Below are positions 3,103 through 34,252 of a stretch of DNA of 64,000 nt, piece by piece. The notes below the pieces were generated by a model. The model was not told where the DNA came from, did not search any database, and saw nothing but the letters and a program-made list of their open reading frames with translations. This DNA comes from Homalodisca vitripennis (taxonomy: Eukaryota; Arthropoda; Insecta; Hemiptera; Cicadellidae). The position numbers and the translations under genes are program-made. The DNA lies in contig NC_060214.1 of NCBI RefSeq assembly GCF_021130785.1, positions 2,197,001-2,261,000 of the forward strand. Reading direction: 5' to 3'. How positions within the stretch are numbered: position 1 is the stretch's first letter; every line of letters starts with the position of its first letter.

Positions 3103-4047
3103 CAGGGTGGCGCATATGTTAGTTTCCCCAAAAGAGAAATTTAAAGGCGTTATAGGTTAATTGAATAAAAACACTTTTAGGCAAGAAAACAAATTCATTA
3201 TATGAAATTACTTACATATTACCAAACAATGTTATAGCTATTGTTCGTAATGCCCAACTTGATTTTGTATACACTTCATTCAACGACTAAGAACAGAATC
3301 ACAAATTTTTAGCAATAAAGGTTTATCGTTATTAACAAGTTGAAATGCATTTCTAATTAGGTTTCTGAGTTAATCAAGATTTTATGAAGCATACACAGTT
3401 TCCTTTATAATACCCCACAGTGAAAAATCACAATTTGGATCAACCTCTGAGCGGATAATTATTGTCTCACAGAATTCCAATCGCCTATTGGAATCATCCT
3501 CGTGAAGCGCTTGGAGTAAAGATGGACGGTATGGCTTAAATTTTAATTGCTTTAACATTCTTTGCATGCTTCTTCTTGATATTTCTAGTTCAGCAGATGC
3601 CTTACAAGTCGATTTAATAACCGGGACTGGTTAACAAAAGCTTGAGCAACTGTCTGCAGCTTTTCTTCATTGCAAATTGATCGTGGACGACCACACTTCA
3701 GGGCATTAAACACTTCCTGTGTTTTCAAATTTCTTATTTAACTTCCGCATATACTGTCGAGTGGGTATCGAGACACATGGAAATTTACCACTAAATTCTT
3801 CAATTATTATAGCAATATTTTTATTATGCTTCCACCACAACTGAAGGATGTAAACTTGTTGTTGGGTTGTAAACATTTTTAAAACACACACACAAATAGG
3901 AGATGCAAAGAGCGTCACTTTACACTAGCCACTGGAACAGACAGCAATGAACTTACTCCGTGTTGCTGCCAAGTTAACATTGTTACCAAACTATCGAAAC
4001 AAAATAGTATCCCAATTTATGGGGAAACTGACATATGCGCCACCCTG
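3103..4047 (-). mobile_element. Tc1/mariner-type element with internal deletion
   Basis: A 945-bp element bounded by 27-bp terminal inverted repeats (start CAGGGTGGCGCATATG; right end CATATGCGCCACCCTG; one mismatch over 27 bp) and flanked by TA on both sides, the target duplication of the IS630-Tc1-mariner superfamily. The - strand carries the transposase start and end, but most of the catalytic domain is absent, so it cannot be autonomous. Confidence 0.93.
3240..3918 (-). pseudogene. Broken mariner transposase with DUF4817-like HTH
   Basis: The N-terminal block at 3706-3918 contains MFTTQQQVYILQLWWKHNKN and ends KFENTGSV, the pattern of the DUF4817 helix-turn-helix found in insect mariner-like transposases. 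A second block (3382-3567) reads SRRSMQRMLKQLKFKPYRP then LHEDDSNRRLEFCE, the segment just before the DDE core. The residues after 3382 jump to a C-terminal block (NAFQLVNNDKPLLLK and GHYEQ). The catalytic DDE region is therefore missing, and frameshifts separate the blocks. Confidence 0.85.
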
Positions 4048-4639
4048 TATTCATGAGCACAACCCCATGCCAGAAACCAATAATAGGTCTTCTATTACTG
4101 ACTTCTGCAAACAAGGAAGGAGTATGCCACAACATGTAGCACAGGCTTCACTGAGGTTCGCTGCAAAATTTCACGTCAATAGGTCACTTTGTTCTCGAGA
4201 TGTCATGCAGACAAACAAAAATAAAATTTGTCCAGCCCCTCCAGTGACAGGCTTTGCTAAGGCCCAGCCAGTTATGGCCTTTTTAGTTGTTTGTGAAGGA
4301 ACATAAACAGGATATATCTAAAAGAAAAGGTGATTTTTTACTGGAAAGGCTTTCAATTTTCCTCTGAAAAAAAACACCAGCACCATGCATATCTGAAATA
4401 CACAAATTAAGAATTTCAAAATTTCACAAATTTTAGTAAATATTCTTTATTTAGTAGGGAAAGCAGTTTTTGCCTTTATAATCAAACTTACTTGTTTACC
4501 TCTTTACTCCCAAGGCCACTAATAAGGTGGTATTTGGTCTCGCCAAAGTTTTCCTCCACTTCTTCCACATCTTTTTAACTCAGTGGTGGGTCCAGTGGCA
4601 GAGCCATGGCTCTCTCCAAGATTGTGGAAAAAAAAGTTT

Positions 4640-5360
4640 TTATGAAAAATACTAGCAGTTACCCACGGCTTCACACTCAATTTTCAAACTCGAAGGCAAT
4701 AGCTTTCTTAGTGAAAGCATTCATGACGTAATATGATGGAGCCCTACAATTTTTCTACACATAGGTAGACATACCGGGTGAATATTATTTCAATATCCAT
4801 GGTTGAGAAATTCAAAACGTAAATAAAGTTTTGACTGGTTCTATCTTAGGTTTTGTTATATACACATAAGTCTCAGAAACTTAATTTGATCAAAAAGTGT
4901 CAACTTCCATGTGTTTAAATTAATTTTCTATCTAAGGCATTTCAAGTGCCATACTTGAATTTGACTTGTGCCCCGATCAAGAAACTATATACCAACAAAA
5001 ATCAACTTAAATTAAAAGCATCTACTTTCAGCACTTTTAATTTACTTTCTGTCTAAGATTTTTAAAGTGCCATAGTGATAATTTGCTTTTTTTGTCCCGA
5101 TAAAGAAAATATGTAACTTACGTACAACTGAAAAGTTACTGCGGTCCAAAAGAGTCAGATATGACTGATTAAATTCACTTCCGCTTTAATTTATTAATGG
5201 TTCCACAGTTAATTTTGTGTTGTTGCACTTACCAAAAAATTAAATACATATGTGGATTTTGGAATTCAACTTAGATTTAAAAGTGCTTATTTACGGTCTG
5301 CAATGTTTCTGGTGCTAGAAGTAATATTAATTTGTAACCCAATCAAGAAAATATGTGTAT
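4640..5360. repeat. Dispersed repeat with three diverged ~125-bp internal units
   Basis: Begins near AGCAGTTACCCACGGCTTC, which resembles the start at 28487 (AGCTGTTCCCTGCAGCTTC), a signature seen at the end of many insect interspersed repeats. It continues with three related blocks around 4930-5000, 5045-5115 and 5285-5355, each with AAGTGC..., a TTTG/TTAATTTG stretch and CCCRATMAAGAAA. The family is not identified. Confidence 0.5.
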
Positions 5361-7227
5361 ACGTAAGCTTAAAAAGACTACTTTTGAATTTTTTGCACCT
5401 ATCTTTGAGTCCTTTAATCATCACACATAGTTTAAATTATAGTATTCAAGTTGTATAAAGATGTACAGGCTGCCCATAAATAGAGTTTAAACATTTTTGT
5501 TGTATAAAATTAAAATGAGCTGGAAAATGTATAACAATTAATGCTCTTTAAACAAAATCTCTTATAACTTCATTATTATATATGTATCTAATTTTTTAAT
5601 AAGCTATAAACTTGAATTTATATTTATTCATGCATAAAAATTGTGTATATACCTAATGTTACAAAAATTCAATGTCTGCAAAAATTTAAAAATTGTTTAA
5701 ATGTTACAATTAATTTATATACTTTATTATGGCTACATACTTAAAGCATTTATTTCTTACAAAAAAAAATTAAATATGTGTTTACCTCTTAAACAACTAC
5801 ACAGTGAGTTTCTAAACAAAAGCCTACAAAACTGGGAAATTCATATAGTGTTAAAATAAGTACCTCCAAATAACTGGTTGAATGTGCATTATTTGGTGTC
5901 GAAAGACACATAAATGTGGCAGCTATGTTGGTTTTAGTTGAGTTACAGCCTAAAATTATTTGATTTCTGGACAACCCTTATATTTTAAAACAAAAATAAA
6001 TTACTTATAAAACATCACAACAGTAATGACATGAGCAATAAGTTATAAATCGTGTTTCCAAGACGTAGCCAGGAAAAAATTTTAGTGAGGGCCAAGACTA
6101 CTGATATTTTCTTGCAGCGGACAGAAAGTACGGGAAGTGCAGTCAACTGCTCATTCCCCATTTTGTTCCTTAAAAGGTTCTTGACCCGTTTCATTGTTGA
6201 CATAGATCTTTTAGCAGTGCTTGTCAGTAATACCAAATTATTTAAATAATAATAATAATAATCGGTTGCTAAAAAAGTAATTGAAAAAAATGTTGAGGGG
6301 GTTGTACTTGAACACCCTTGCTGGCTACGTCCTCGTTTGTTTCTACAAACAGTGTATTTCAATATAAATATTTACATAACAGATTCTATTGTTCATTATT
6401 TTTATTTGTGATGTTTTATGACAAGATTTTTAACACAAAGAATTATGCGTAAGTACATTAATGCTACCAAAAAAATTAGCATTTTACAACGGTATTTCTA
6501 TGTATGAAAATCAGTTTTAATAAAATTCAGCGCAATATCTTGGAAGCACTTGAGTAAGAGTGTACCATTCACATTACTTCACACATTTGTTTATAAACAT
6601 TGTACTGAGCATGTATTTTTCAAATAAAACTGAAGAACAAAGTACCGTACTTGTTTAAATCGACCTTCATCTATTCAAGCTTCAACTTGTTTCTTGTAAT
6701 GTCTCTGTTTTTCTCTCTGCACAAATCAAAGTACCATTCACTTCCTCATGTAGAGATGTGTAGATTTTATAATTGTAAAGTAGATGAATCAATAGGGCTA
6801 TGTTGTACATATTTTTCTTAGTAGCAAAACCGCACATATAAATAATGATGTAAAACTGTATTTTTTCATGTTTTATTTGTGTAAAGTGAGTATCATAACT
6901 ATCTAGATTTGTATGTAATGTAGAACAATTTCTGAAATTTTCAAAGCAATAATTGTTATTATTAACCTTTTTGATCCGAGTCATTTTTTAAAACAGCTAC
7001 CAAAAATCGCAACAATTACCATAAAGTTTTACTGAGAATCCCATCACAGTTTTGCCCGTTTCCAAACCTTTAAAAAAGAATTTATTGTTGTACTTATTTG
7101 TCAAGTGATTTTAAAGATTTGTTTTTCTTCAGAATGAAATATAATTTATGTTAATGAACATGAAAAGTATGTGTATTCACATAATAAGTTATGCAATTCT
7201 TTGTTTAAAGTTTGTGATTGACGATCG

Positions 7228-7428
7228 AATAACAGGATTTCGGATATTTGCCATCGTTATATGTTACAAAAGGTATAACAGATTGTTTCGAGGATTGGAA
7301 TCTATCCTATTTTTTATGTATTAATACCTCTCCCCACCTAAAGAAGAGAATAGATTGCAATCCTCAAATTTTGTGTTATACCTTTTGTAGCATATAACGA
7401 TGGCAAATGTCCGAAATTCTGTTATCCT
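7228..7428. mobile_element. Foldback MITE, ~200 bp
   Basis: Left arm AATAACAGGATTTCGGATAT...CCATCGTTATATGTTACAAAAGG is mirrored by right arm CCTTTTGTAGCATATAACGATGG...TCCGAAATTCTGTTATCC. The two arms could pair over most of the element. Related copies are at 7690-7850, 15935-16045, 16920-17170 and 21095-21150. Confidence 0.8.
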
Positions 7429-7689
7429 ACGTTATGCAAAAGACAAAATTTTCTTGCCTTACAAATCCTTCTTTCAAAACATGTTTGACTTTGTATTAAT
7501 GAAAGGTATACAAGCAATAGATTATATTATGTAAAATTAAAGTTACATATGAAAAACACCAAATGTCATCAATTTCTTTTAACAAAGACAAACTATGGGT
7601 TTTTTTTTTATTCAGAAATTGACATGTTTTTCAGAAATTGCAATTTTGTTCAGCATTGCTGAAGAAATTAAAACAAAATAAATGTACCT

Positions 7690-7850
7690 TTGGTATTAGA
7701 CGATGGAAGGTTTGAAAGGATAATAGGATTCCAGACATTTTCTGTCATTAAATGTAACAATATTTATAACGTTTTGTAACATACATGATGTTGTATATTT
7801 TGTAACATATAAAGATGGCAAATATCCGAAACCCTATTACTTTGGGTTGT
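7690..7850. mobile_element. Related foldback MITE, diverged copy
   Basis: Contains ATAATAGGATTCCAGACATT near the left and AAGATGGCAAATATCCGAAA with CCCTATTAC on the right. Same family as 7228-7428 but with a different centre. Confidence 0.6.
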
Positions 7851-8181
7851 TTATTACAAAATATAATTTCTACGAATTAATTTTCACTTAAAGCAAATAA
7901 TAATTTAATTTTCATAGTTGAAATCATAGTAATTAAATCATACCCTACAAGGATCTGTGTGTTTGAAGATAGTTTTGGGAGATTAAATTACAATTTAGAC
8001 TTTTCTGGCAACTATCGTAGAGAGTAATTTTGTAACACAATCCCTATACAGTATTATACATTTCCCTATGGTTTCTTCCATTGGTACTTCTTTGTCCCAT
8101 TTTGTATATAGTACACCGCAATTTTGGTCATCCCAAAAAATGGTATAAAAAATATTAAGCTGTTAACCTAATCAATATTGT

Positions 8182-8248
8182 AGTCTGAATTGACTTTATT
8201 TGCTAAAGTCAATTCAATTTGGACAAAAATATTGATGATTAAAAAACA
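8182..8248. repeat. Perfect short hairpin
   Basis: GAATTGACTTTA and TAAAGTCAATTC form a 12-bp perfect stem around TTTGC, within a slightly longer arm starting CAATATT and ending AATATTG. It could be a small foldback repeat. Confidence 0.5.
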
Positions 8249-9891
8249 TTAAGTAAAAAGCGCTGACGTGAAAGACGCTAAATAAAACAAAATACACAGT
8301 TAAACAAATTTAGACAAATATATTTAAATCAAATTTTCATATTTATTTATTTAATTATATATGCAAAACTTATTTATAAACTGTGGAAGACAGCTTATAA
8401 AGAGCTGTTAGTCACCTTATTTATATAAAAACCTTAATTATTTATTCCAAAACTATTGTATTTTTTTTTTTTATTGAATGACATTTATTGATAATGTAAA
8501 GTAACAATTAAGAGTAAAGTTGTTTTAAACTATTACCAAAATATGTTTAAAACAAACTCTTGTAAGTGTACACACTTTTGTAAAATATGTAGAATAGTAA
8601 TTAATAGTGTTTTCCAAAACGATTTTTTTAATGGGTAGCTTAGATTAAACTGTAGCTTAGATTTAGCAAATTACTACTGAACTAGATTTGTAAATATGAA
8701 CAATACAGTGATATGAATTTAATATAACATTATAGTATGTTGTATATAATATTAATATATTATATTTGGCTGATAAATATATCTGAAAAAACTCGAGCAA
8801 TAATTAAAATACATTTTATACACTCCCGTCTGTCTCCAGCTGGTATTTGTAAAACAAGATCAATTATGCATCTAATTTATTTTTCCTTCATATAGCACGA
8901 TGGTCTATTGATCTGGGAGTCACTCCAACAACAACAACACAACATAATATGGTATCATTAACTCAATGTGCCTAGTCGCTGACTGAAGATAAATATACCA
9001 GTCAATTTCTATGATTAAATAGTAATATTTATTGTAAAAGTACATTACGTAGTGTTTAACTGGATATGCATGTTTATAAATAAAACTGGCAGACTGTACA
9101 AAAGCTCTTTTACTGTACTTTTAATCGTAGGCATGTTTATTGGCTATGTAAAAAAATCGCTTGAGCTTGTAAAAAAATAAAATGCTTGGAAACTAATTAT
9201 TTGCTGTCATTTTATCGCTTTGTCATGTATGGTTCTTAAAGAGTGTTCTATGTGTCTAAATATGTTAAGAATTAAAAATTGATAATCATTACTTTGAAAC
9301 ATATTGTGTTTTAAAGTGTTGATCATCACACAAAGTGTTGCATAACATGCTTCACTGAGACTTCCGAGGCTGGACATGCACTAACATGTCCATTCTTGTC
9401 TATGGAGAAATGAAGTTTCTTGCAAAACTTAAAGCTTGTAGTTTATTCCTCGTGATACATTCAGAGTTTTTTTCATTAAGACAGGTTTCATAGCAGTGTT
9501 AAAATAATAAAAGTTCCAGTGAGCTAGGGAAGGTATTACAACACAAGAGTAGTTTGAGCTAAAATAAAATTTTTTTACTGACTTTAAACATTGATTTTAA
9601 ACTGTATTATTTTTTATTTTTATTCAATGACTTTTTTTTATATCCATAAAGGGAGCAGGAGTATGTCTGATGGCCGCTCATTAATAAATTACAAGAGCTA
9701 AAACTACTTCTGATATTAGAAGCTATACTAAAGTCATCTATAGAGCTTGTGTTGCAATTCATTTTACAGTGTCTGAATTCTGCACGATTCAAACTCCGAA
9801 TGATAAGCCATCAAAAACCATTCATTGATTAGCAAACAGATTAAGGAGACAGATCTCACAGACAAACAAAATATATATATAATTTTGTTTA

Positions 9892-10330
9892 CGTATACGA
9901 GTAACTGGCCATCGATTTGACATTGTCCATAGCGACGTAGAAAAACCTTTAGCCAGTCACACTATCAATGTCCATAAACAAAATCATTTAGAACATTTTT
10001 ACACCTACAAAGGTAAGATCCCTGAAAATTCAAACAAAAACCTTAATAGATTGAAATTGAAATAATTGAAACTCCACACCTATGATACTTCAGACAAGAC
10101 ATCCAAGGAGTCTTAATTTAAGATAATTTTTTTTACTTATTTATTCACACACGTCATGTCATGGACCATTAGCTGCTGATTTTTTGTATTTATTTGTAAT
10201 GTTGTTTTTTCTTGTTTAATTTCTTATCTTCTTTTTCTGTCATATTTTTTGTAAATATTTATACAATTGATATTTATCTGAAGAAGTGTACTACATACCA
10301 AAATGTTTTGAACCAATATACCGTGGTTTA
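9892..10330 (+). mobile_element. Penelope-like element 3' fragment
   Basis: Positions 9897-10030 translate as VTGHRFDIVHSDVEKPLASH followed by TINVHKQNH, the C-terminal part of the GIY-YIG endonuclease of Penelope-like retroelements (GHR...DI...H...KPLA.H). A frameshifted tail follows (LNRLKLK, then LLHTYDTS-like residues). At about 10277, CTGAAGAAG...AAAATG resembles the conserved 3' end of these elements. Confidence 0.7.
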
Positions 10331-10721
10331 TTTGTTGAAGAGAATAACCTGTTTCTGTGAATATATATATATATATGAACATGTCCGCTCCCACACTACA
10401 ATATATTGCTTTTTAAATTAGTCCAGCTGGCACACCACACGTTTTTTTCACTGCAGACCAGTGGAAAAACTATGTGCAGGTTGTATTATTATAGAAAATA
10501 AAAATAGAAAATACATTTATTTCCAGTCCAGAGTCGTAACCTGTACACAAGAATCGAGTCTGATCGGCCGTGATCAGTTTATTAATTCGTTAATTGATAT
10601 ATTTGTATTAATTAGTAAAAATTTATTGATTCTCAGTTTATAAAATATGATTAAAAGAAACGATATCCCAGGCTGTGCAGACCATGACTCTATCTAGAGA
10701 AAGCTACAAATATGTAGTAAA

Positions 10722-10756
<35 letters not shown>
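10722..10756. repeat. (TA)n microsatellite
   Basis: About 16 consecutive TA units. A shorter TA run lies near 10364-10376. Confidence 0.95.
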
Positions 10757-11917
10757 CCATTGAAAATATAAAAAGCTTTGTTCTATGTAAAACATTCCTA
10801 AATATAAAAAAATACCATATATGTCAAGTTCAAAACAGACACACAAAAAATGTTACCTAAGACCACCTGATTTAAGGTTCCCACATACTCGATATACCAC
10901 ATAAACTTTTATTAAAATAGACCAGTGACACAAATGTGTGCCACCGAGCTCTTCAGCTCTTAATAAATTTATTTTAGTCTGGTATATGATGAATGTCCGA
11001 AACTTGTATATTTGTCCCTACAGAAATGTGTGCTACTTGGTTTTTGGTTGTCATATGGCGAAACTTGTAATATGGCCTTGTAAATTGGTACCACTGTCGT
11101 TTAAATTCTCATTACAACTTACCTAATGCTGGTTATTATTCTAGAAATAATTCTAACCTAAATATATGCTAAGTGATTTGCTTAATAATTACCACCTAGA
11201 TGGGGTACACATTGCTATGCGTTTGATTATTGCGTACCCCACCAGGCACGCGATTGCTTAATTTTTAAGGTAAATTATGTTTTTAGGTACCACTTGGAAG
11301 TATACGGAAAATATTTGAAAAAACTTTTTGAAATAAATTTTTTTTGCAAAATTGCGAAGCCTACATACATTTTTTATTATACTTCAGACGTTTAACGTTT
11401 GAAAAACAATTATGGTTTTTATAATTATTATTGAAAAATTTGATGGCAAATAAAAAAGTCAAGAAATAAGCCATTGTTGTGTACGTGTCACTGATTACTT
11501 TTTAATTCCTTGCAGAAATAAATTTCTAATCTTCATAAGTATGTACAGGGCTCATTTACAACAATGAGTCCCCCTTTTCCCAAAGTTCAATGTACAAGAG
11601 AATAAATGATTCAGAAACTGGATAAAAACTTGGTTTAATTCAATACACAACTTGTGCACTATATTGTTCAGTTTTTCACCTATTTTTTGCTGTAATTTTC
11701 AATTTTCTTAGAAGTATCACTAAGACTTTCTTCCATTGTACCTACACTCCTCCACTCAAATTCAGTTGAATAAAATCTTTACCAAATTAATAAAACTGTA
11801 ATTAAAGACTATCTTCTACATGTTGTAACACGGCACAACCTGGACATATTGTTAAACGTTATTAACAAACAAAACCAGGAGAAGATAAATTTTCTATCAC
11901 CAGTGAACCAGTGACAA

Positions 11918-12112
11918 GTGTTGCTTTATCCCTTTATCCTGAGTAACGATTGGCTTTATCCCTTTATCCCGAGTAATATTTGGCTTTATACCCCTGTATC
12001 TCGAGTAATATTTGGCTTTATACCCCTTTATCCCGAGTAATATTTGGCTTTATACCCCTGTATCTCGAGTAATATTTGGCTTTATCCCTTTATCCCGTGT
12101 AATTTTTGAAAT
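11918..12112 (+). repeat. Minisatellite, ~32-bp period, about six units
   Basis: Units of the type GAGTAATATTTGGCTTTATA + CCCCTKTATCYC recur. The first units are 30 bp (lacking AC) and the later ones 32 bp. Confidence 0.9.
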
Positions 12113-12665
12113 GAGCACCTTTTTTCCCAAGGTAATTGTTTTTATAAGTGTATTTTCTCTATACCTATTTTTCTATTTCCATTGGTAATATATACTGCTG
12201 CTCTAGCAAGTGACAATATCATGAAATACCAAAATTGCAAAAAATTCAATGAGCCCCTTTTACCTGGGGATCCTTAAAATATTATTTTGAAATCACCAAT
12301 GACATTTCAAAAACGTACAAAAAGTTGTATAACATTTGAATGTAAAGCAATTCTAAATATAAATTGATTCTCAAATTTGCACACTAACTTTGATGGATTT
12401 TTAGAGTTACGATTTATTTAAGAATGACCAATAATATTATTTATGTTCAAATTAGTGTTTAAGATAATGTAAATACAAATTATAAAAGTTTTTATACAGT
12501 TAAATTAGAAACTACATCTTCTTTTTCTTATTGCTTTTAGTGTCTCATGAGAAGGCTTGAATATCACGCTACAATTTTATTTCCATTGACATTTATACAT
12601 TATTATATTACCTGCTTCCTTACTTTGCAATCTGCCTGTTCCTCCTGGATAATTTCTAACCTTAC

Positions 12666-12922
12666 CTTCATCTCTACTGATAATTTCCAAAGATGTAAAT
12701 AGTAGTACCCTGGTACCCTACTGAGTTGATCGTACATAGCATGTAGAGTAAGCACTTGTATTTTTTTTGCACCAGAAAGTTGGCAGTGTTGAGAATATGG
12801 ACGACGGCTGAAGATGAGAAAGCCAGTAGAAGACAAGAGACAGCCTCCCCGGCAACTGAAGTTGCTTAGTTCCTGCCCGTCAAGGGCCACTTTTTGTACC
12901 TTTCTCCAATAAAATTTGGAAA
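12666..12922 (-). CDS. Candidate VPS8 C-terminal exon (tentative)
   Basis: An 85-codon open block on the gene strand with an acceptor (AAGTGTTGCAG) and a strong donor (GATGAAG/GTAAGG). It starts in a phase needing one extra base, exactly what is supplied if any RING-exon copy is spliced at CCAG/GTTAAC instead of running to its TAA. Its end contains MYDQLSRVPG...WKLSVE, which recalls the conserved FDQL-R...LTEL segment at the VPS8 C-terminus of other animals. The rest has no match I recognise, and internal pyrimidine tracts leave the true start open. It may be chance, or may start at another acceptor. Confidence 0.35.
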
Positions 12923-13016
12923 CTGCAACACTTTTGTTTCTTCTAACACACATCACATAGATTCTAAAAGTTACATACAACAGTTTTACATACATGTGTT
13001 TTAATACTAAACAAAA

Positions 13017-13316
13017 CACATGAAAAGTTAGATCCACGTAGAATGTGTGATGAACAGGAGACTGGTGAACACCTGCTCTTTGATTGTCCTGCAATAGCAA
13101 GGGAGCGGTATGCCATCTTTGGTAGTTTGGACAAGGGTGGCGAATTTCCCCAAGAGAACCTGATTGGTTGTTTTCGGCGGTTTATGTAACTGCTGAAATC
13201 ATAGACTGGTAGGCCTCATGGCGTGCTTCTGGGGTGCGCAAAAGGCCCTTGAGGCTTAAGTGCATGGCAATAGGCCGGCCCATAGAAGAAGAAAAACAAA
13301 ATCACATGAAAAGTTA
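13017..13316 (+). mobile_element. 5'-truncated RNase H-type non-LTR insertion with target duplication
   Basis: The sequence 13031-13302 matches the last part of the element at 41605-42227 (same CTGCTCTTTGATTGYCC, ATGCCATCTTTGGTAG and TTTTCGGCGGTTT words). It is flanked by a perfect 14-bp direct repeat, CACATGAAAAGTTA, at 13017-13030 and 13303-13316. The encoded end reads [24 protein letters not shown], the CCHC-type tail of such elements. Confidence 0.88.
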
Positions 13317-13832
13317 AAAGTATTATGGAAAAGACAGGAAAATCAAATATTATGGGAAATCATGATGAAAGCGTCGTCTTATCGTTGGTTTTAAGTATTT
13401 TAAAAACACGTTAAATGGCAGTAAATTTTACTAAGGGCTAATTAAATGGCATGAAATTGGTTTTATATTAAAACAAAATTTAAGGACTGGTTTGAGATTG
13501 GGTACTTGGGGTTTAGTTTTATTTAATAAGGAACTGAATAAAAAACTTCCTGAAGGTTAGAAGGATATTCTTATTCTTTATAAATTGGGTTTCCAATCTG
13601 GTAAAGATAAGCCTGCTCTTCCTATCTCACGTTAAAACCTTTCTTTTTGTCCTTTTTAATCATAAAAACAATTGATGTAACACTTGTTTAAAATGATTTT
13701 ACATTTGTAAATAGTTAAAAATGCCACTAACAAAAAACTACATGAAATAGGTTAGTATACTTAGCGAACTTACATTAATTATGGGGAAATAAGCCTGTTA
13801 ATGCAGCTAGGGAGTATCCACAATTTACTTAC

Positions 13833-14050
13833 CTTACAGGCAGAAAGATTCCATGTGGTCCTTGGCCAACAATGAGTAGTAGCCTACTGCTCATCTGGAG
13901 TGCAGGGGGAAGTCACAATCTCAATCTGACCGGCCGCTGTGGTTAGTAGGCTTATACTTACTCCCCTCTGCCGCTCTTCCCCCCTCATTACCAGCCGTGG
14001 TTCCCCTCTCACGCCTAGGAGACCACATGGAATCGCTCGGCCTGTACAAG
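13833..14050. mobile_element. MITE-like element with ~28-bp inverted ends and GC-rich core
   Basis: Left end CTTACAGGCAGAAAGATTCC...ATGTGGTC matches the reverse complement of the right end (GACCACATGG...CCTGTACAAG) with few differences. The interior (CGGCCGCTGTGG, CCCCTCTGCCGCTC) is strikingly GC-rich against the AT-rich flanks. No coding potential was seen. Confidence 0.65.
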
Positions 14051-14170
14051 GCTGTCGCTTACTTCTTTAGTGCGATAATTAATCATTAGTTTAGTAGAAT
14101 GTAGCTTATCAGTCCAGAAGGTGAAAGTTAATTTGCACTGTATAAGCACACAACCTTGTTTTTCTTGAAA

Positions 14171-14610
14171 CCAATAGAGAAATTTCCCCTAAAAAAGAAA
14201 TTGATCGTCATATACGGTACTTTTTATGGAGGTCAAAACAAGAGAGTATCAAAAGGGTTAAAATTATGAAACAATGATTTTTTTTTCCAGATTAGTTTTT
14301 TTTAGCCCCAACCACCACAACATGTGTGTGTATTGTTTATGCGTTTTTTCTAGACACATAAACATAATTTATCATCTTCAGATAACTAGATAAAAAGATT
14401 TAAAAGTCACCATTTTAACTGTATATAATTAACATTTATTTACATGTCTGACGATTGCTTTTAAATATTTCAAGCTAAAATAAATGTAATCTGAGAAAAA
14501 AAAATTATCGTTTCACATTTTCAACACTTTTGATACTCTCTTGTTTCAGCCTCAATCAGAACTAGAGCGGAGGGAATCAATTTCTTTCTCAAGAGGAATT
14601 CCTCTATTGA
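14171..14610. mobile_element. Foldback element with ~95-bp inverted repeats
   Basis: Left arm (CCAATAGAGAAATT..., AAGAAATTGAT, CAAGAGAGTATCAAAAG) is repeated inverted at 14515-14610 (CTTTTGATACTCTCTTG, ATCAATTTCTTTC, AATTCCTCTATTGA). A diverged half copy lies at 25727-25805 (AAGAAAGAAATCAAA, GGTATCAATGG). Confidence 0.75.
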
Positions 14611-16919
14611 GTTTACGACAAACCAGGTTGCGAGCTAATACAGCGGATATTGGCTCTCAACTCCTTGACTATAGTCATGACGTAGTCTCAAATGAGAAAA
14701 GTGTAAAGATAATACACTCCTAGTTAATGGTTAACCAGGTGGTTAAAGCAAAACAATGTAAAATGTTTTACACAATTGCAGCACATTACATGTTTATTGA
14801 CAACTAAAACTGTGTTTTTTCACAAGAAAATATAGACACACATATCCCAGTCGTTCTGCAAACTGACTTCTCATATGAAAGCTATTGGTGAAGTTTGAAG
14901 ATTAACATTCATGTTAAACATTTTTGTAATATACTACTACTACTATACACTTTAAATAAATGGTTAAACTTAATTTGTATTCTGATGATTATAGCTAGAA
15001 ATAATAAATAACTCAGTATAATAAAAATGTGAACTTTAATGATGATAAATTAATTGACATACAGGTTTGAAGATGGAGGATACAATAATGGTAAATTTTT
15101 AAATACAGTTCTTAAATTTTAGGGCAGGGTGGTCGTGCTGGCTTAATGAAATAGAAATATTAGGTATTGTTTTTAATAAAAGATATTGTAGTTTTGAAAA
15201 ATTTTGTTAAATTTTAATTATATTAATTTTGAATTGTTAACCAAATTGAATGTTCCGGGGTTTTATGTTCTTCCAATGGATCACTGTTAAATTTAAAAAG
15301 GAATTTTCTCACCCAATGTCTGTCTTCTGCTTCTCTGTACTTCAGTGATAATATGAATTTAATAAATTAACCTTTCTTTTGAACCAAATACTGCTGAATA
15401 AAATGTAACCAGTTTCTTTATTTAAAATAATAATCTTGCTTCACTTCTTCTATATCCCTCTCTCCTCTAAACTTTTAAACCTCTGCTCTCTTCACTCAAT
15501 AATCATCCCTGCACACTGTATCACTGACTTTAGTTTATAACTTTTGAGTTTTATATGTAATAAGGTGAATTTTGATTAATTTTGATATATTTAATTTTTT
15601 TATTTATTATTGTTTGTATTAAAATTTGAGACAATTTATAATTAATTATTCCTTAATTATTTAATTATTATTACTAATAAATTTCAAAATTAAATTAAAT
15701 ATTGAAATGAATATGAGACGGGTGTATGAAATGAGTCATTACAACATCAACGTTTTGCTTATAAAATGAAAGGATTAATCCAAACAACAAAAATATGATA
15801 TTCAAAATAACACCTAGGATGAAAATCTAAAAGCTTTGATTAAATGACAAACAAATAAAATTTTCTGTGAAATTATTAATTCTTTGTTTGAAGTTTGTTT
15901 ATTCCTAACTTATGCGGGTCAAATGCCCTGTTAGGTTAGTTATCCACTTGAGGAAGAGATCAGACTACAGATCTCAAAAGTGTTTCTGATTTTTTTGTAT
16001 CACTGAACGATGGCAATGTTCGGAAAAATTCTGTTTCCTTGAACGTAATTTATGTTAACAACAAAAATTCACAGAACTCATTAAAGGTTTAATGTTATAA
16101 GGAGTAAAATGCAATAATGACACGGTTCACTTATAAAAGTAATTTGTGAAAACAGAAAAATCAGGAGGAGCCACGCAGCAAGGGCTTATGAAACACGTGC
16201 CAAAGCCTGTCTCGGAGAAATCACTTAAGCTGGTTTATTCATTGTATTTTGAAATAAAGTAATTTTCCTTCTCTTATATTAGTGTCTGTGTTATCCTAGT
16301 ATGGTTTTATGGGAGTACAGTTCTATCAAAAGCAGAAATCATACAGCTCTCAAACTTTATAATATTTTACATATCTGTTGATTTTTGAAAAACCAATGTT
16401 CCCTCAAAGTTAAAACTCTGGCATCGAAAAAAAAGTCAGATAAGTCTCTGAATTATTTTTTTTTTCCATTCTTGTAGTTAAGTAGGATGGAAAAGCATAC
16501 AAAACATTAACTTTGACACCATTTACATGTTGTTAGAAACAAAAAATTCATTTTTATTTAAAATCAATAAAGAAGAACAGTTTTTTCTCTTTTTTCTTGT
16601 TAAGAGAGATATTTTCTTTGAAGAAGTGATAAGGTGATCACCTTTTAGCTTAATTTGCTCGTCCTCATGAGTCATTGGTATAATATAACGTAATGTAAAC
16701 AAAATAATTTTCTTTTTTGTCTGGTTCTAGGTGTAACATTTTTTTAATAAAACTGTATATTTTAAGAAACACTTAGTTGTCAGAATTACAAAAATTGTTG
16801 TAAAATAAATGATTTTTAATTTTCTAACTTTTTTTCTTGCAGATAAACAAGAAATAAGATTATTTTAAGCTGATGTGCTCTCCTTTATAAAATTATTTTT
16901 GTTTGAAGTTTGTTTTTTG
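14611..16919. other. Region downstream of the VPS8 stop, no gene seen
   Basis: Very AT-rich. Apart from the half MITE at 15935 nothing is recognised. If the exon at 12666-12922 is real, this is intron. Confidence 0.5.
15935..16045. mobile_element. Half copy of the CTGAAGAAGAGATC foldback family
   Basis: Contains AGGAAGAGATCAGACTACAG, GATCTCAAAAGTG and a terminal CGATGGCAATGTTCGG, matching the right half of 16920-17170. Confidence 0.65.
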
Positions 16920-17170
16920 ACGATGGAAGGATTGTGAATAAAACCGGATTTTTCAAAGACATTTACCATTGTTCAGTGATACAAAAAGTCAGTAACACTA
17001 TGTTTCCAGATCTGCAATCTGATCTCTTCTTCTAGATTGTAACTATGTATTAGATTAGTTATTTATCTAAAGAAGAGATCAGATTGCATATCTCAAAACG
17101 TAGTGTTACTGATTTCTTGTATCATTGAACGATGGCAAATGTCGAGAAAAATCCTGTTTCCTTCATCAAA
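16920..17170. mobile_element. Foldback MITE with hammerhead-like centre
   Basis: Arms: ACATTTACCATTGTTCAGTG...CAGTAACACTATG on the left, and CGTAGTGTTACTG...CATTGAACGATGGCAAATGT on the right. The centre holds AAAGAAGAGATCAGATTGCA followed by TATCTCAAAACG, which folds into a short GAGAT/ATCTC stem. Confidence 0.75.
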
Positions 17171-17393
17171 ATATTACCATTTCAAGCTTTAAAACATTAT
17201 TGCTGTATTGCATCATTGTATTGAGAAGTTCCCAAAAGACTGCTTTAAATCATCCAAAGGCATTTTCTAGGGTAAGTGTGTAAAAATACAAATAATTTTT
17301 CGTATAAAACGTATAATAGATAACTAATAAATTAAACAGGTAACAATAAATAACAAATATATTGTGAAGAGTAGTGACAGATAATATCTTTGG

Positions 17394-17475
17394 TTAACCT
17401 GGAACTTCAGGTTTATAGCACTCATTACAATGACTTGGAGAGGCCAAACAGTCTACGTGGAATATGTGCCCACAT
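17394..17475 (-). CDS. VPS8: VPS8 RING exon, copy 1 (last in transcription)
   Basis: Same protein as copy 2. Downstream of it the sequence loses similarity, so if the TAA is the true stop this copy lies closest to the polyadenylation region. Its acceptor is TATTGTTACAG. Confidence 0.75.
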
Positions 17476-20400
17476 CTGTAACAATAACAAATAGATTGTG
17501 TCAAGTAGTGACGAGATAATATCATTGGTTAACCTGGAACTTCAGGTTTATAGCACTCATTACAATGACTCGGAGAGGCCAAACAGTCTACGTGGAATAT
17601 GTGCCCACATCTGTAACAATAACAAATAGATTGTGTCAAGTAGTGACGAGATAATATCATTGGTTAACCTGGAACTTCAGGTTTATAGCACTCATTATAA
17701 TGACTCGGAGAGGCCAAACAGTCTACGTGGAATATGTGCCCACATCTGTAACAATAACAAATAGATTGTGTCAAGTAGTGACGAGATAATATCATTGGTT
17801 AACCTGGAAATTCAGTTTTATAGCACTCATTACAATGACTCGGAGAGACCAAACAGTCTACGTGGAATATGTGACCACATCTGTAACAATAACAAATAGA
17901 TTGTGTCAAGTAGTGACGAGATAATATCATTGGTTAACCTGGAACTTCAGGTTTATAGCACAAACTACAATGACTCGGAGAGGCCAAACAGTCTACGTGG
18001 AATGTGTTCCCACATCTGTAACAATAAACAACAACTAGATGAGTAGAGTAGTGACGAGATAATATCTTTGGTTAACCTGGAACTTCATGTTTATAGCACA
18101 AACTACAATGACTCGGAGAGGCCAAACAGTCTACGTGTAATATGTGCCCACATCTGTAACAATAAACAACAACTAGATGTGTGGAGTAGTGACGTGATAT
18201 TATCTTTGTTTAATTCTGTTTAATCATATCAAATAAAAATTTGATTAAATAATGCAATACAGAGAGCAAATAATGTTTGTACAATTGAAATACATTTTAT
18301 AAATATTAAAAATATTTCTTATAAAATTTAATTATGATAATTTTATATCTACTATGTCAATGCTATACAACTTTGATGTCTTGTACCATTAATTTTGCCT
18401 CTCATCACTAAATTTAAAAAAATATTAATATATAATTTTAACTATAGAGAGTAGCATTAAAAGTACTACCATTCACCATGATAAAGCTGAATTGGTGAAA
18501 AATCTGTTCTAAATAATTTATTGAATCTACTATAGTGGAGGTACTGTAAAATCCACGAGAAATCTAACCTGTTTCATTAATACATGATAGATATTTTAAT
18601 AATAATAATACAGTGATTATAAAGTAACAAGTGGACAAGTTGTATAAAATTATACTTAATTTAAAATTACTGCAAATCTAATAAATTTCTTGTGTAAATT
18701 AATATAAGGTCTTTATTTAGCAAGCGTCCATCAGTACAAAAACTGTTTTTCATGAAAACTCTTGTCAGTCATATAGAATACATGGAGAACAATAACGTAA
18801 ACCATAAAATAAACGTAAAACACTAAACTATAAAAACTAAACTAACCTGATGCATATGCATGGGTCAGGCAAACACCACCTTCACACTCCCCTTAAATTT
18901 CTTACAGCTATAACTTTTTAAAGTGGGTGGCAAAGCATTGTATTTCTTTGGTCCAAAGTAACTAAAACCCTTTTTCCCCGTTTCCAGCTTTGTCTTTGGT
19001 AGGTGCAATAGGCTGTTCTGACGGGTACTACGCACATTAATTTCTTGCCTGAATACCAGCTTGTGTAGTGACATGTATGGTACTTGTTATTAAGGATCCG
19101 GCAAGTTCTTTTTAAAATTGTGCCACTATTTGTCTGTCTGTCTATACGATAACTCTTGATAAAATGTCCTAGACTATTGGAACCTTGTACGTAGGTTACT
19201 CATGATCAAAGAAAGAACCATATTGATTTTGGAGGAAAATGTCAAAGAGTGGCAAAGTTAGTCTAGAAAATGTCACTAATGCGGAAGAAAGTTAGTCAAT
19301 TCAGTAAAGAATTTCTTTATATTCTGTCGGGTCGTTTGGTACTATAATGCATCGGTTTATTACAAAATTCTGATATTGGGCGGTTTTTCAAATCAGAAAA
19401 ATACAAAAGTCACTCATGGCCTTCAAACTGCACACAAAATGTCCGACTGTGGTGTAGAGGTTACCTGAAGAGATGCAGGGTGGAATGCAGCGTGTACTGG
19501 CATGTCGAACAGCTAGATGGTACCAGCTGACCCCTCCGCGAGTCTTGCAGGACTTTCTGCAGCTGACTGTGCAAGTCCTGGTACTGCAGCTGGACCGTCG
19601 TCCGCAACATCGCCTTCTCGTGTACGCACTTTTCGAACAGTCCTGCACAACAATAGCACTCTTCAGCGGATGCTAATTTTAAGAGTACATAGACACACCC
19701 CTTTGAAGTAATTGATGGCATTCAGTGAAGTTACACATATACAACTTTTTATTGATGGAAGAGCTCTTTTTATTGGAAAAAACTACTGCAGTAAAAAAAT
19801 CCACAATTGCGCTATCATTTTTAAATGACTTCTAAAGCCGATAAGAGCCCATTGATCAAATTAAGTTAGAAAGTGATATAATAGACTTGTTTAGAAATAA
19901 GAATAACACACAAATATTAAAATCAATTTATGATCATATTTTCTAACCAATGATGAAAAGCCATAGTATAACACTAGCTATACATAAAATGCTGACCAGT
20001 TTTACTGAAAAGTGTAAGTATATAGGAAAAGAGATTTGAATTTCAAATCACTCAATTACCCGATTGAGTCAAACTTTCGAGTCGAACAGCAGCTTTCAAA
20101 CAGAAACATTTTGTTATATCAAAGGCATTTTATTCGACTGATGAGTTCTTGATGGGCCGCTGGTATGAAAATATTTGAAATTAACAACAACCACGAAACC
20201 CCTGGTTCTGATACATACAAGAATTGTATTGTATTGTATGTATTTACCTTGACAAACATCATTTATCTGATGTAGTTATGTATTTTATATAGTTATGTTG
20301 GCGCATGCCATGCAATATTGTAATTGTTTAACGCAATAAAGAATATTATTATTATTAAAAATATTGTTAGCCTGTAGAAAGGGTATGAAGTCAAATTGTT

Positions 20401-26400: not shown

Positions 26401-29400
26401 TCAATTTCAAGAAACGTCAGTTTGTGTGCTTATACAACACACATTGGCTCTTGGGCACTAGACTCCATCGCTAATTTCCTACCTTGTCCATGGAAGAGTG
26501 AAGCCTGTTGAGCAGGAGGTCGAAGGCCCCCTGGAGGTCTCCGGAACGCTCCAATAATACTGCTGTTACTTCGTCCAGCCCTTGCTCGGTTGAGGCCTGT
26601 AATCATAGTCATCGTTTGGATCTTTCTACCTGCTTTATTTTCAGTTATCTAAGAACGTAACCTGTTTTTCATTGTTGAAAGTAACTTAACCAGAGAAACA
26701 GTAAAACTACTTGCTGTTAAGAGGCCAGCAGATATGAATTAGTAAAACTCAAATATTACTCTAGTTTTTAATTATATTTTCCTTGGTTTTTACTGTGGTG
26801 GTTAATACTATATATAAAACAATAAATATATCATATATTGTTAAAAATGTTTTTGATTGAATCGAAAGTTGTACTGTAGTTCGCTGTAGCCTAGTATTTG
26901 GTAGTATACTGATAGCAGGGTACTAGTGAAATATTCTTTTCATTTTTATTTTATTTAAATAATTCAAACACGTTTTCAAAAGTCCAATATATAGAATTAT
27001 ATGGATGCCCAATACGAATTATTGATATTAACCCCTTCAAGGTTTTTGACGTAATACTAGGTTCATAGCGATTGCATAAAATAGTGCAATTTACATAATA
27101 TTACGCATCATTATATTGTTTCTGTTTTATTTTTTAGTGGTAAAGCTGTACCAAATGCCGCTTGACCTCCCTCTCAAAAAAGGACTTGTTTTTGTTTTCA
27201 AAGAGTCTGAGAGAGCATTATATAGTTTAATTCCGCTGACTAATAAATGTCTTTCAAAAAACTTGTTCTATGGTCGGGAATGGTAATTACATTGAAGTGA
27301 CGTAGACTGTGGCGATGTTGGGTATTACGTGACTTGAAAAGGTGGAGATTTTTGTGATCAAATGTCACGCAGTTCAAGATATAAATCGATGGGAATGTTG
27401 AAACTTTCACCTCCCTAAAAAGTGACCTACATGAAGTTCTACACGTTCCCAAAAACCGCTCTCAACAACCTTTTCTGGAGTTTGAAAACAAATTTTGTGC
27501 GTACACTTTCACATCCCCAAACAACTACCGCAAGTGACAAAGGGGTAGGTCAGCCAAGGTCACTCTGGTATCAGCAAACTTTGATAGGTTTCTTATAACG
27601 GAAATCACAGAGCTTAGTTTCTTACAGACGAGCTCAATATGATCGTGGAATCTTAATATATTGTTAATCTGACCGCCAAGAAACTTTTAACGAGTTACTA
27701 GTCGAAATCTCTCTTCATGTCCCAAACGAAATGTAATATGCTCCAAATCCTGAGAACTCCTGATAGTAAAGTTAATTATTTGAGTTTACTTATTATTTAC
27801 TACAACCTAGTTATGCTGAAACAACTGAGATATTTGGTGTGTTTCTTCAGAAGCCAAACAAATACGGCCTAAACTCTATATAGGTACCCGAAAATATTTG
27901 TAGAGCATTTTTTAGTCCACATTGAATTACCTGGATAGCCTGGTCAAGTTGGATGTTCTTGTTAGCCTGCACCAGAGGTAAGGCCAGCTCTGGATCTAGA
28001 TGGCAAGTCAGCACAAAGTACCTGGTCATCAGAGGTGGTTCCAGCTCCCCCTCCAACCTTGGACAGAGAACTGACTATGAGCGTTACAGCCGACACACTG
28101 CCACATTGTAACTACTGAGAACTCAATAGTTCAAGTAATCAGTTTTTAACCCTCCGACTGATAACAAGAAACTCACAGAATGATACACTGGTTTTTGTCT
28201 TTGCGCAGCATATTTTTCAGATATTTTTTTAAATATGTGCTAAATGCTAAGTAATAAGTGTTTTCTATCAATTTTTTAGAAACCAGAGACAATTTTAAAA
28301 TTATAAAAATATGCACTTACTAGAGTATAGTTTTTTTTATTTCTACATAAATTCAAAAACGTGTATTGTAAACTTTTTGTTTTCCAAGTTTCACTCCATG
28401 TCACTTTCACATGACTTGAGATAGTAAAATACAATAAATGTAAAAAATATACACAGTTTTCTAGTGAACAAAAGGATTATAACATACTAGCTGTTCCCTG
28501 CAGCTTCGCACGCTTTTTTTAGCTTTGCCCGTGTATGAGCACTTTTGGTTCAAGTGAATTATATTGTCAACGTCGATGTAGAGTTTACCTTGTTGACACT
28601 ATCAAGAAAATCTGCCAAAAGTGTATGTTTATAGCCATTGTACACGTACATGTACTTAATAATAAAGTGGTCTAACATTCAAGCTATAAGGCCCAACAGA
28701 AATTCATTTCAAAGACAAATAATATCCATAAAAACTTAGCGCCTTCACATAGTGTGTGGTTATTATACACAACTATCTCGTAATAATTGTAGTTTACAAT
28801 GTGCAGGCGCTTTGATAACTTATATATTTTGCAGTGCCTCCTGGTGGTGAGTTACATCAATGAGCATAGCATAGACAATAGACAATAGACAATAGACAAA
28901 TCTCTTTATTTCATGAACTTTGAGTACAGAAATGTCGTCAAAAGTTTGCAAGAGTTGGAAATTGATGAATCCATGTACGAAAATTAGTTTTGATTTTGAA
29001 AAGTCGGGTCTTCCCTCCACCGAATGTACTCGTCGATTGAGTAAAGGGGTCGAACTAGGAGCCAGTTGATAAGCCGCTGTCTCATATTCTTGATTGGCCC
29101 TGGAGTTTTCAGCTCATCAGGCAGGTAGTTGGCAAGTTTGGCACCGATGTATGAGGGCTTCTTCTCATAGAGTGCCAGTCTGTGATTGGGAAGAACATAG
29201 TCGCTACCGTTTCTTGTGAAGTGGTTATGTAAGTTGTTTCTTCTGGGGAGATCTTGACGTGCAGCATGGAGGATTACCTCAAGAATGTAGAGAGCTACCA
29301 CTGTGAGGATTTTTAAATTTATAAAAGCTCCTCGGCAGGACTCCTGAGGACCTAGACCCAGCATGGCTCTGATGATTTTCTTCTGGTGTATCAGTACTCT

Positions 29401-32400
29401 TTGGAGGTTTGTTTTGGAAGAGTTTCCCCATAGTACAAGGCCATATCGAAGATGTGACTCAGCAAGAGCAAAGTATGCTGTTCGGAGTATGCTCTGATCT
29501 TCTGTGATCGATTTGAGTCTTTTTATAACGAATACACCAGAACTGAGTTTAGAGCATACCGTATCCACATGGAGACTCCATGACAGGTCTGAGTCAATGG
29601 TGAGGCCTAGGTGTTTAGCATATTCGGTTTGGTTTAGTCCAGGTATTTCAGTTACTTGGTGTTTTTTTGATCCAAAGAAGAGCTGTGTGCTTTTACTCTC
29701 ATTAACAGCCAAATCATTGCTATGGCAGTACTCAAGTGCCATGTTAAATGCTATGTATGCTTTAATTTCAAGTTCTTCAGGGGTTTTTGTACTATTTATA
29801 AGAACTGTGTCGTCTGCATACATAAGCAATGAGCAGTGCCGCTCAAGGAAATTTGGCATGTCGCTGGTGAAAATGATGTACAGGACAGGGCCCAGGACTG
29901 ATCCTTGCGGGACACCTCTATCTAGCTTTTGGCTTTCCGACCGAATTGTTTGCATTGTCCCTTTGTGATCTGTATGACTTATTTCAACCACTTGGGTTCT
30001 GCCTTCCAAGTAACTCTTAAACCAACTTGCAGCAACACCGGTCACTCCGATTCCCTCTAATTTCTTTAAAAGCATTTCATGGTTAAGGCAATCAAATGCC
30101 TTGCTGTAATCTAGGAGTATGGTTGTCACAGTGTTTCCTGCCTCTATATTGTCTATAAGTCCTTCTATTAGGCTGATTAATGCTGTTACTGTTGACCTAC
30201 CCGCAGTGAAGCCATGTTGATGAACTGTAAGCATATTAAAGGTTTTGATATGTTGTAGGAGTCTGTTCAGTACTATTTTTTCTATAATTTTAGAGAAAGC
30301 TGACAGAAGTGAAATCGGCCGATAGTTTGATGGTTGCTTTTTATCACCTTTCTTATGTTTTGGTAGCACTTTAGCGATTTTTAGCTGAGAAGGAAATGTG
30401 CCCTGTAAGAGAGACTTGTTGACAATATTTACTAGTGGTTGTGCAAGTTCGTCTTTACATCGCTTCAATGTTTTTGGTGACAGTTCATCTATTCCTGAGG
30501 AGGTTTTTGATTTCATTGACTGGATGACTTGTTTTACCTCTATTGAAGTGGTTGGGTGAAGTACCAAGCAGGGACAGTTAGTAATCCTGCTCGTCATTGT
30601 GTTCTGTCTGGGCTTAGGTTGTTGTGCTAAGGTTGTTTTAGCAACACTAGTTAGGTAGATATTCAGTTGGTTTGCTATATCCATAGGGTTTATAGATTAT
30701 TTTTCCGTTCACTTCCAGCTCGGACAGTGTGTTATGGTCTTGCTTACTTTTCCTTTCACTATTAATAATTTTCCAGATAGCCTGACTTTTGTTTTCAGCT
30801 TCATCGATGATCTTTGCAGTTGCTTCTTTCCTTCTCCTTTTAAGTAGTTGATCATATTCTTTCTTTTTTCTCGCGCCGCTTGTTGTTTGTCCTCTAGCTT
30901 TCCATACAGAATGTATTGCTCTTGTGCTAGGAGGAATTCATTTCTTAATTTTTTAGTGTCAGAGTCCTGAGGTGTGGGTTTCTTCATTTTCTTAGTTCGA
31001 GTAATTTTGACAGGACAAGTTTTGTTGATTGTGCTTATAATTATCTTGTGCAGGGTCATGTATGCTTCTTCAGCATTTTCCTTTGAGTATACTTCTTCCC
31101 AGGATTGTTGGCTCAAGAGTTCTTTTAGTTCCTGTATGTTTCTCCTGGTAAAGCTCCTTTTTTGTATTGTCATGTTGTCCTTTCCAGGTTTTTGGACATT
31201 TATTGTGCACATTTGTCCGGTATGATCAGAGATGAAGGTATTTATTACTTCGGATTCAATTTCAGATGAGGCTAAATTAGTACATATAAAATCTATGGAG
31301 GTCTGGCTATGTGGTGTGATCCTGGTTGGAGGGAGATACAGTCTTATGATGTTGTAGGTGTTCAGGAAAGCTTCAAGTATTTTGTTACTCGTTGAACTCT
31401 CGTCCAAGCAGTTTACATTTATGTCCCCCATTAGGATTACTGTACTCTTCCATGTTGGAATTGTGTCCAGGAAGGTTCCTAGGATTTCTAAGGCATTTTC
31501 AAGATTATGACTTGGCCTGTACACTCCAATAATATAAGTGTCTCTGGGTTTGGTTTGTAGCTTTACTGCCGCTATCTCACAGAGCAGTTCTTCGCTGTAT
31601 TGGGACGCATTCAAGCTTGTTGAATGATTTCTGAAGTTCTCTCTAACATATACTGCAACCCCCCCTTTAATATGTTGTGTTCTGCTAAAAGAATCTATTA
31701 GATTGTATCCATTGAGTCTAACATGACTGATAGAATTTTCTTGGTAGCCATGTTCCGTGATGATAATGATGTCAGGGGTCTCTTGGGCTAGCTGGTCGTT
31801 TAGGATATCTATTTTATTGGAGAGGCGGTCTACATTTTGATGGAAAAGCTTTATTTTTTCTTTTGTTTGTGTACTTTGCTGGGGATACTGTTTTAAGGTG
31901 TACCCTCTCTTTTGCTGGAGTGATTTTTGGCCACAGTTGTATGGAGTTGAGCCAATTTCAAGTATTTTGTGTTGAGTATATGTTTGTTCGCAGGGTGGAG
32001 AGAATTCACAAATGTTCTGGTATTGTAATTTTGTTTGAATTTGATTTTTATGAATGGACTTTCGGCTAAAAAATGTCTTTGATTAGGTATTTTGATATTG
32101 GTTGTAGGTTTTGGCTGTGGGCAATTATCCTGTCTATGTACTTGTGCTTCCACAACCATTGTGTGTCCGGCCTGGATTGGCGAATCCAGGACCTTGTTTG
32201 TCGTCAGCCCTGTTAGCCTTGATCCTGGTGTATCCATAGGGTATTGTGTCAGAAATTCCCTGCATTTTGCCATTTGTAATGAGACACTGAAACAGTTCTT
32301 CTTTTTTCCCTTAGATGGTGTATTACTCAGTTTAGCTGGTGTATGTTTTCTTACTGTTTTTTGTTTTGGTACTTTGGTTATGCTTTGAATTTCTGAGTTA

Positions 32401-34252
32401 GGAGGTTCCTTAGATTGGTTATTTTGGATCTGTACCGCCAAGTCTCTAACTGTACATTCCAAACTATCTTGCCTTACTTTCAGCTGTACAAGTTCCATCT
32501 GCATGTTTGAGGAGCAATTTATAGGTTGAGAGATGCAGTGAGAGCCTGTTTCAGTTTGAGTTTCATTATTTGTAAACGTAGGCAACTCTAATATTTTAAT
32601 ATCTTGAGAACTTACTTTCTTTTCAAGCTTATTAATTGTATTCTGTAGATGATTTATCATTTTAGCATAATCGTCTACCAGTTGTCCTTGTTTGTAGTCA
32701 TGCTCTTCAAAAATAATTTGAGTATCTAAACGAAGTTTCTTTTCTTTTCCCAGTTGGACTTGTGTTTCAGATAAATTCTGTAGAAGGTCTTCAATTTTGC
32801 TGAGATACTTGTTTTCTTCAATTTTCATTCTATCCAACTGTTCTTCCAAAATTTCTAATTTAGCTTCTAATTCAATATTTTTTCCTTTCAAGAGGTTATT
32901 TTCCTCGAGGAGTGCTGCCCCTACTTTTCCAGCTATTTTTAATTTTTCGTCATTATTTTCTAAGTTATCTAGAAAATTATTTTCACTCAGACTATTTTCC
33001 AACTCTTTTATTGAGGTGTACAGACAATCTGGACTCTTGGAGAAGCTAACTTCAATGTTTTCTGGGTTAGGTTCTATTATACTTAGTTCAGGTTCTTGAA
33101 AAGACGAGTTGGGGGTATTTATTTCTAACTGTGCCAGAGTTCTAGGTCCACATAGCTGTGTATTAGTGCATCTTCTACATATCCAGTTTGTAGAGTCCTT
33201 TTTAGATAGATCTTTTAGTTCCTTACTCGCTATGTTTACACAGTCTGCATGGTACCATTTTTTGCAAGTCCCATTGCAAAATATTCCCTTATATCTAACA
33301 CCCACTGTACAAACTCCGCATGGATAACTAGGCATGTTTAATTCTTAATTTTATTTCTTAATTTCGGCAAGTTTAATTTTTGTTTTTGTTTGTTTTTTTT
33401 TTTTGTCAGGCTCTTCTGAGTTAACAGGCTCCTCTTGTATATTGAAAATTTTAATTACAGCTTTGTATGTGTACTTTAAAATATAATTAATTCATTAGAG
33501 TTGTCCTCTATTAGTGTTCAAAATGCCAGTGCAAATGGACAGACAGTTTGAAAAATGTATGTCCAAGTTCAATAATTTATGTGACAATGGAGATAAAAAT
33601 ATTTACAGATATCCAGGTAGTCCCATTTATAAAAATATGTACAGAAATCCAGTTTGTCCTACAAATAAAAATGTTAAAATTGTATTGTCAAATAGATAGT
33701 ATTTATTTTGTCAGTTCAATAAAATAAAATAAAAATCACTAAGTAATATTAGCTCAATTAGATTTATCAAGCAAAAAGATTAGCTTGAGGTCAGATTTGA
33801 ACCCAGTACCTCTAGGTTGCCAAGCGGAGACTCTTTCCACTAAGCTATTATACTTGATGGTTAAGATAGCTTATCAGTGCTAGATAAGGTATTCAATTAA
33901 CAGGCAAACTTGGTTATACCATGTCACAGCAAACCGGCCATATGACTCAGCTTCACTTTCCAACCATAAATAATAAACCATTCAAAATTAAAAACTATTG
34001 GTCTGGAAGGTTGTTTCTTATTATCTGATTTAGAGCATATAAACCTTCTACGTGGAAAAATACAAATACATACAAATTTTCATAATGATCGGTCAAATAG
34101 TTTCTGAGTCTATAAAGGACAAACACACAAACATTCATTTTTATATATATATATTGTATATATATATATACAATATAGTATAAGTAAATTAAAGTAAATT
34201 TAAGTAAATTACGCTTAGTTTTGAAAGCGCCTGCAAGTTATAATATATATAT

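Follow-up and report, generated by a model that had tools for sequence, protein, structure and literature searches.

In the window, i.e. the whole stretch of 64,000 nucleotides of Homalodisca vitripennis DNA that was analysed, the last coding exon of the VPS8 gene occurs six times in tandem on the minus strand at positions 17394-18153. Each copy combines an acceptor, half a RING finger and a stop codon, and the copies are thus predicted to represent six potential terminal exons and not internal, mutually exclusive ones. We consider it probable that the array arose by a young and local tandem amplification of the terminal exon, which is mostly neutral, and that the canonical type represented by the two 3′-most copies is the one in use. 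Both the usage of the acceptors and the neutrality of the copies are inferred.

The exons preceding the array are exon A (26596-26483), exon B (22077-21954), exon C (21288-21178) and exon D (19642-19465), which together with one copy of the terminal exon E encode a chain of 201 residues. Exon D (19465-19642, minus strand; GLFEKC...SSCSTCQ...LHLF(R)) provides the first two zinc ligands of the RING (CSTC), ends with the donor GTAACC in phase 2 and corresponds to residues 1107-1166 of protein P0001 with 100% identity. When 827 candidates were searched with the joined chain, 17 proteins reached an E value of 0.001 or below, namely P0001 (H. vitripennis VPS8 "isoform X2"; 100% identity over 99% of the query), P0002 (H. 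vitripennis VPS8, flagged "LOW QUALITY PROTEIN"; 99% identity over 99% of the query) and fifteen further records with identities of 45-58%. Moreover, residues 509-1192 of P0001 map in order over positions 62790-17397. The Pfam Vps8 RING models matched below their cut-offs, and scans of positions 17300-46800 gave no match to the TPR or propeller models of VPS8. As the Pfam matches are weak, the identity of the gene rests on the matches to P0001 and P0002 together with the in-order mapping. On these grounds we assign the gene, as the first-pass annotation had done, to the CORVET subunit VPS8, the C-terminal part of which is encoded here in order. Among solved structures, the best match was VPS11/PEP5 with an E value of 0.02, which was too weak to be used. 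A query of 202 residues additionally retrieved P0018, an annotated H. vitripennis VPS8 that lies on a contig of 102,881 bp and thus probably belongs to another assembly, and four short records (P0019-P0022), none of the four with the RING exon, while a query of 57 residues for the RING exon in records of relatives gave no match. Each of P0019-P0022 holds one of the VPS8 exons A-D at 78-93% identity and reads on into the intron; they probably derive from a related leafhopper. At positions 38950-38960 or thereabouts (minus strand), the window is one base longer than the annotated VPS8 frame needs (near 38955; ..SAVLDNID.. in P0001, ..SAVSDNID.. in P0002), which represents an assembly or an allelic difference.

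The copies are numbered here in the direction of the gene, so that E1 and E6 correspond to copies 6 and 1, respectively, of the first-pass annotation. Tandem Repeats Finder reports the repeat at positions 17349-18213 with a period of 135 bp, 6.4 copies and a score of 1420. Four of the steps from unit to unit measure 135 bp, as had been described for the array as a whole, and the step between E1 and E2 (the former copies 6 and 5) measures 138 bp. The sequence TATTGTTACAG precedes all six copies, the acceptors are located at positions 17475, 17610, 17745, 17880, 18015 and 18153, and the reading frame is open throughout; acceptor, exon length and stop codon are retained in each copy. In these respects the first-pass annotation, which had listed six copies with these acceptors and an open frame, was confirmed, as was its assignment of the zinc ligands (former copies 1, 2, 4 and 6 intact, CGN in copy 5 and YNEC in copy 3), to which we add that the former copies 5 and 6 read CSLC.

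The RING-H2 motif has the form C-x2-C ... C-x-H-x2-H-x2-C ... C-x2-C. Exon D joined to E1, E3, E5 or E6 conforms to it, whereas with E2 one histidine and with E4 one cysteine is missing. The copies were scored against a profile built from ten relatives, and the best scores were obtained for E5 (17529-17610) and E6 (17394-17475), both with 69.1 bits. E5 is canonical and identical to the ends of P0001 and P0018, and E6 encodes the same protein sequence with a single synonymous difference. E3 (17799-17880; 68.8 bits) retains all ligands and carries the changes A to V, P to T and V to F. In E4 (17664-17745; 64.5 bits) a ligand cysteine is replaced by tyrosine (YNEC), and its ending is the same as that of P0002, whereas in E2 (17934-18015; 64.5 bits) a ligand histidine is replaced by asparagine (CGN). 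E1 (18072-18153) retains the ligands and differs from E5 by F to L, NE to SL and P to H; its score of 63.5 bits is the lowest of all. The leucine of E1 occupies an aromatic position at which 13 of 13 records of relatives carry tyrosine or phenylalanine, as judged by eye. E1 and E2, the two 5′-most copies, read CSLC in place of CNEC.

The first-pass annotation had interpreted the sequence CCAG/GTTAAC at the end of each copy as a splice donor. In frame, this sequence reads CCA GGT TAA, i.e. proline, glycine and stop, and P0001, P0018 and P0002 all end with ...YKPEVPG at the TAA stop of the array. Correspondingly, every one of the 13 other records that reach the last cysteine of the RING terminates 3-12 residues beyond it (P0013 and P0017, which fall short of the end of the RING, were left out of the fifteen other matches; P0008 and P0010 belong to one species, and for P0008 and P0012 the tail was inspected by eye). 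In addition, GTT does not occur at the start of any of the remaining 13 donors of VPS8 within the window, which begin with GTA (10), GTG (2) or GTC (1) as read by eye. Because GTTAAC contains the stop codon, because the annotated VPS8 proteins and their relatives end there and because it is unlike the other donors, we regard the copies as putative terminal exons. The notion of intact splice signals in every copy hence holds for the acceptor side, whereas each copy has its own stop at the 3′ side. In human VPS8, the RING is followed by a long tail (PMC5651818), and the insects compared here are therefore characterised by their short ending.

The former interpretation, in which internal, mutually exclusive exons equipped with donors would be spliced to a coding exon located further downstream, could draw on the CAG|GT that closes each stretch of 77 nucleotides and on the length of this stretch, which is not divisible by three, meaning that the reading frame would be lost if two copies were joined. 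Of the features of such a cluster, namely an acceptor and a donor in each copy and a shared downstream coding exon, the acceptors are present. In the search for a downstream coding exon, none of the three minus-strand frames of positions 7500-17400 matched a Pfam model at an E value of 0.1 or below, and motif patterns over positions 3000-17400 gave one match, which was chance-like. As the annotated protein and its relatives end at the RING, we rejected this model, which we consider extremely improbable. What is found at the array are homologous terminal coding exons, each with its own acceptor and stop, i.e. the hallmarks of a C-terminal tandem arrangement. No poly(A) signal is present on the coding strand between E1 and E6; two ATTAAA sequences are located just upstream of E1 (18224 and 18214), and the nearest downstream signals are ATTAAA at 16820 and 16748 and AATAAA at 16558. 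This distribution suggests a common downstream poly(A) site for all forms, the choice of the acceptor being their only difference.

The sequence differences between the copies and between their spacers bear on the age of the array and on the constraint acting upon it. Over 58 nucleotides, no difference is seen among the four spacers that follow E2-E5, indicating that this block is either very young or was recently homogenised, and E1 and E2 represent an older type with three substitutions in common (NE to SL). By hand, 13 parsimony changes were counted from the alignment of the copies, of which 11 are nonsynonymous, including the two at zinc ligands, and 2 synonymous, while none creates a stop. 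The probability of at least 11 nonsynonymous changes is 0.37 under neutrality, 0.07 at an omega of 0.5, 0.009 at 0.3 and 8e-6 at 0.1. Thus, the pooled copies show no detectable constraint of the kind expected for a functional RING, and a pooled omega of 0.3 or below is rejected, a result that applies to the pool and not to single copies. Since the neutral probability of obtaining no stop in 13 changes is 0.66, the retained acceptors, frames and stops say little in this regard. Within the young block (exons E3-E6 and the spacers after E2-E5), six changes fall into exons and none into spacers (Fisher p = 0.09, or 0.06 when the two changes of E2 are added). This excess is a faint hint of diversification, too weak to be claimed as such.

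Copies resembling the spacer flank the six exon copies on both sides, seven in total. The stretch upstream of E1 (18154-18213, minus strand), which forms the end of the preceding intron, was recognised by alignment and lies within the repeat 17349-18213, and a diverged spacer copy after E6 (17337-17398, minus strand) begins inside the last codons, extends into the 3′ flank and reads TTACctg in place of the TTACAG found elsewhere. The array may once have contained one further exon copy, or it may have arisen via exchange between spacers that pre-existed on both sides. Decayed extra copies beside the array did not rise above shuffled sequences in positions 18214-19464 or 16500-17336. Just downstream, at positions 16935-17165, we observed a MITE-like inverted repeat with arms of 74 nucleotides that are 88% complementary and additional outer arms of 20 nucleotides, which is possibly located inside the 3′-UTR of VPS8.

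The terminal exon is not the only exon of the gene with extra copies. When the exons were compared with the window by blastn, 3 of the 14 VPS8 exons were found to have tandem extra copies, namely the RING exon (five), exon B (two decayed fragments) and the exon of a 103-bp array (23). The fragments of exon B are located at 21912-21836 (82% identity) and 21674-21619 (84%) on the minus strand, downstream of the intact exon. The 103-bp array (56568-59072, minus strand) extends from the start of a VPS8 exon and consists of approximately 24 units, with 23 extra copies of the first 70 nucleotides (one match covers 68 and one 51 nucleotides). Its unit is composed of the 3′ splice site, the first 70 nucleotides of a longer exon and a spacer of 33 nucleotides (measured for one spacer), and P0002 reads these units in series as protein repeats. 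This recurrence within one gene is more readily attributed to a propensity for tandem duplication, be it local or genome-wide, than to selection in favour of RING variants.

Taken together, the pattern of substitutions, the tandem duplication of two further exons of the gene and the canonical ending of two annotated proteins favour neutral tandem duplication, which the first-pass annotation had mentioned as the simple alternative to its own model. The amplified unit would comprise approximately 58 nucleotides of intron, including the acceptor, and 77 nucleotides up to the stop region. A single upstream donor (19465) could reach any of the copies, and as every copy completes the RING and ends at its own TAA, the spliceosome would select an acceptor rather than a cassette. 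The working protein would most likely derive from the canonical 3′ type (E5/E6), whereas the remaining copies would be tolerated and drifting, their similarity being maintained by recent copying or conversion.

Alternatively, the six copies could serve as functional alternative terminal exons that provide an intact (E1, E3, E5, E6) or a disabled RING (E2, E4), and the disabled forms might compete in CORVET or be left out of it. Such use is possible because each acceptor would yield a complete C-terminus, and acceptors, frames and stops are indeed intact in all six copies. Moreover, the annotated endings are of two types, CNEC (P0001, P0018) and YNEC (P0002), a weak hint that reflects either alternative use or an arbitrary choice of the gene models; P0002 is of low quality and strings the 103-bp units together, so that its choice of a copy may be arbitrary. 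C-terminal swaps are frequent in tandem exon substitution, with 77 of 236 human events (PMC9741552), and human VPS8 is reported to require both the RING and the following tail to join CORVET (PMC5651818). Binding was, however, not observed in the same work for the human RING by itself; the insect protein is devoid of this tail. In addition, constraint over the copies is not detectable, a zinc ligand is altered in two of the six, and E3-E6 are preceded by identical spacers, leaving little by which their acceptors could be distinguished. We therefore regard functional alternative use as unlikely. The more specific proposal that the choice among the six acceptors, including those of the RING-dead copies E2 and E4, tunes the make-up or the activity of CORVET in H. 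vitripennis appears quite unlikely; if it were true, early diversification would account for the faint surplus of exonic over spacer changes. An assembly artefact, in which the true copy number would be lower or higher than six, might be suspected, as near-identical units of 135 bp are prone to mis-assembly and as the window contains the surplus base near 38955 relative to the annotated frame. All pairs of copies differ, however, at 1-9 of 82 nucleotides, the spacers vary in length, and two distinct copy types occur in the annotated models, which renders this explanation very unlikely.

Insects are known for clusters of internal mutually exclusive exons, as in Dscam and Mhc. The VPS8 array has the tandem homologous exons and the repeated acceptors in common with these clusters, but its copies are devoid of a working donor and hold a stop. 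It likewise resembles the 103-bp array of the same gene, both consisting of head-to-tail units of high identity that span an intron-exon boundary; in contrast to the partial exon and spacer repeated there, the RING array multiplies the entire terminal coding portion together with its acceptor and stop. The closest parallel is C-terminal tandem duplicated exon substitution as presented in the human catalogue (PMC9741552), where the coding region closes with tandem exons that are homologous and each of which can provide a full C-terminus. Unlike these cases, the VPS8 array comprises six very similar copies that are known from the DNA sequence, with constraint not detectable and with two changed zinc ligands, whereas the human events (PMC9741552) retain most of the predicted ligand-binding residues (80.6%). 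Within the limited collection of literature searched, we found no work linking Homalodisca and VPS8 and, by titles and abstract openings, no description of an array of VPS8 RING exons. If the copies are used, they would provide an endosome-tethering subunit with a RING chosen by splicing, and natural RING-dead forms with which the role of the domain could be probed. If they are not used, the array would be a clear example of tandem exon copies arising and drifting in an insect genome, as well as a warning for gene prediction, since the RING at the end of P0002 has an altered zinc ligand and the model reads minisatellite-like units as protein.

Finally, the introns of VPS8 contain open reading frames of non-LTR retrotransposons at positions 28984-33344 and 46405-48767 on the minus strand and 50073-52596 and 53546-54121 on the plus strand. 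These frames show matches to endonuclease and reverse transcriptase, with a match to a PHD finger in 28984-33344, and a weaker frame of this kind at 45472-46113 (plus strand) scores below the Pfam cut-off.
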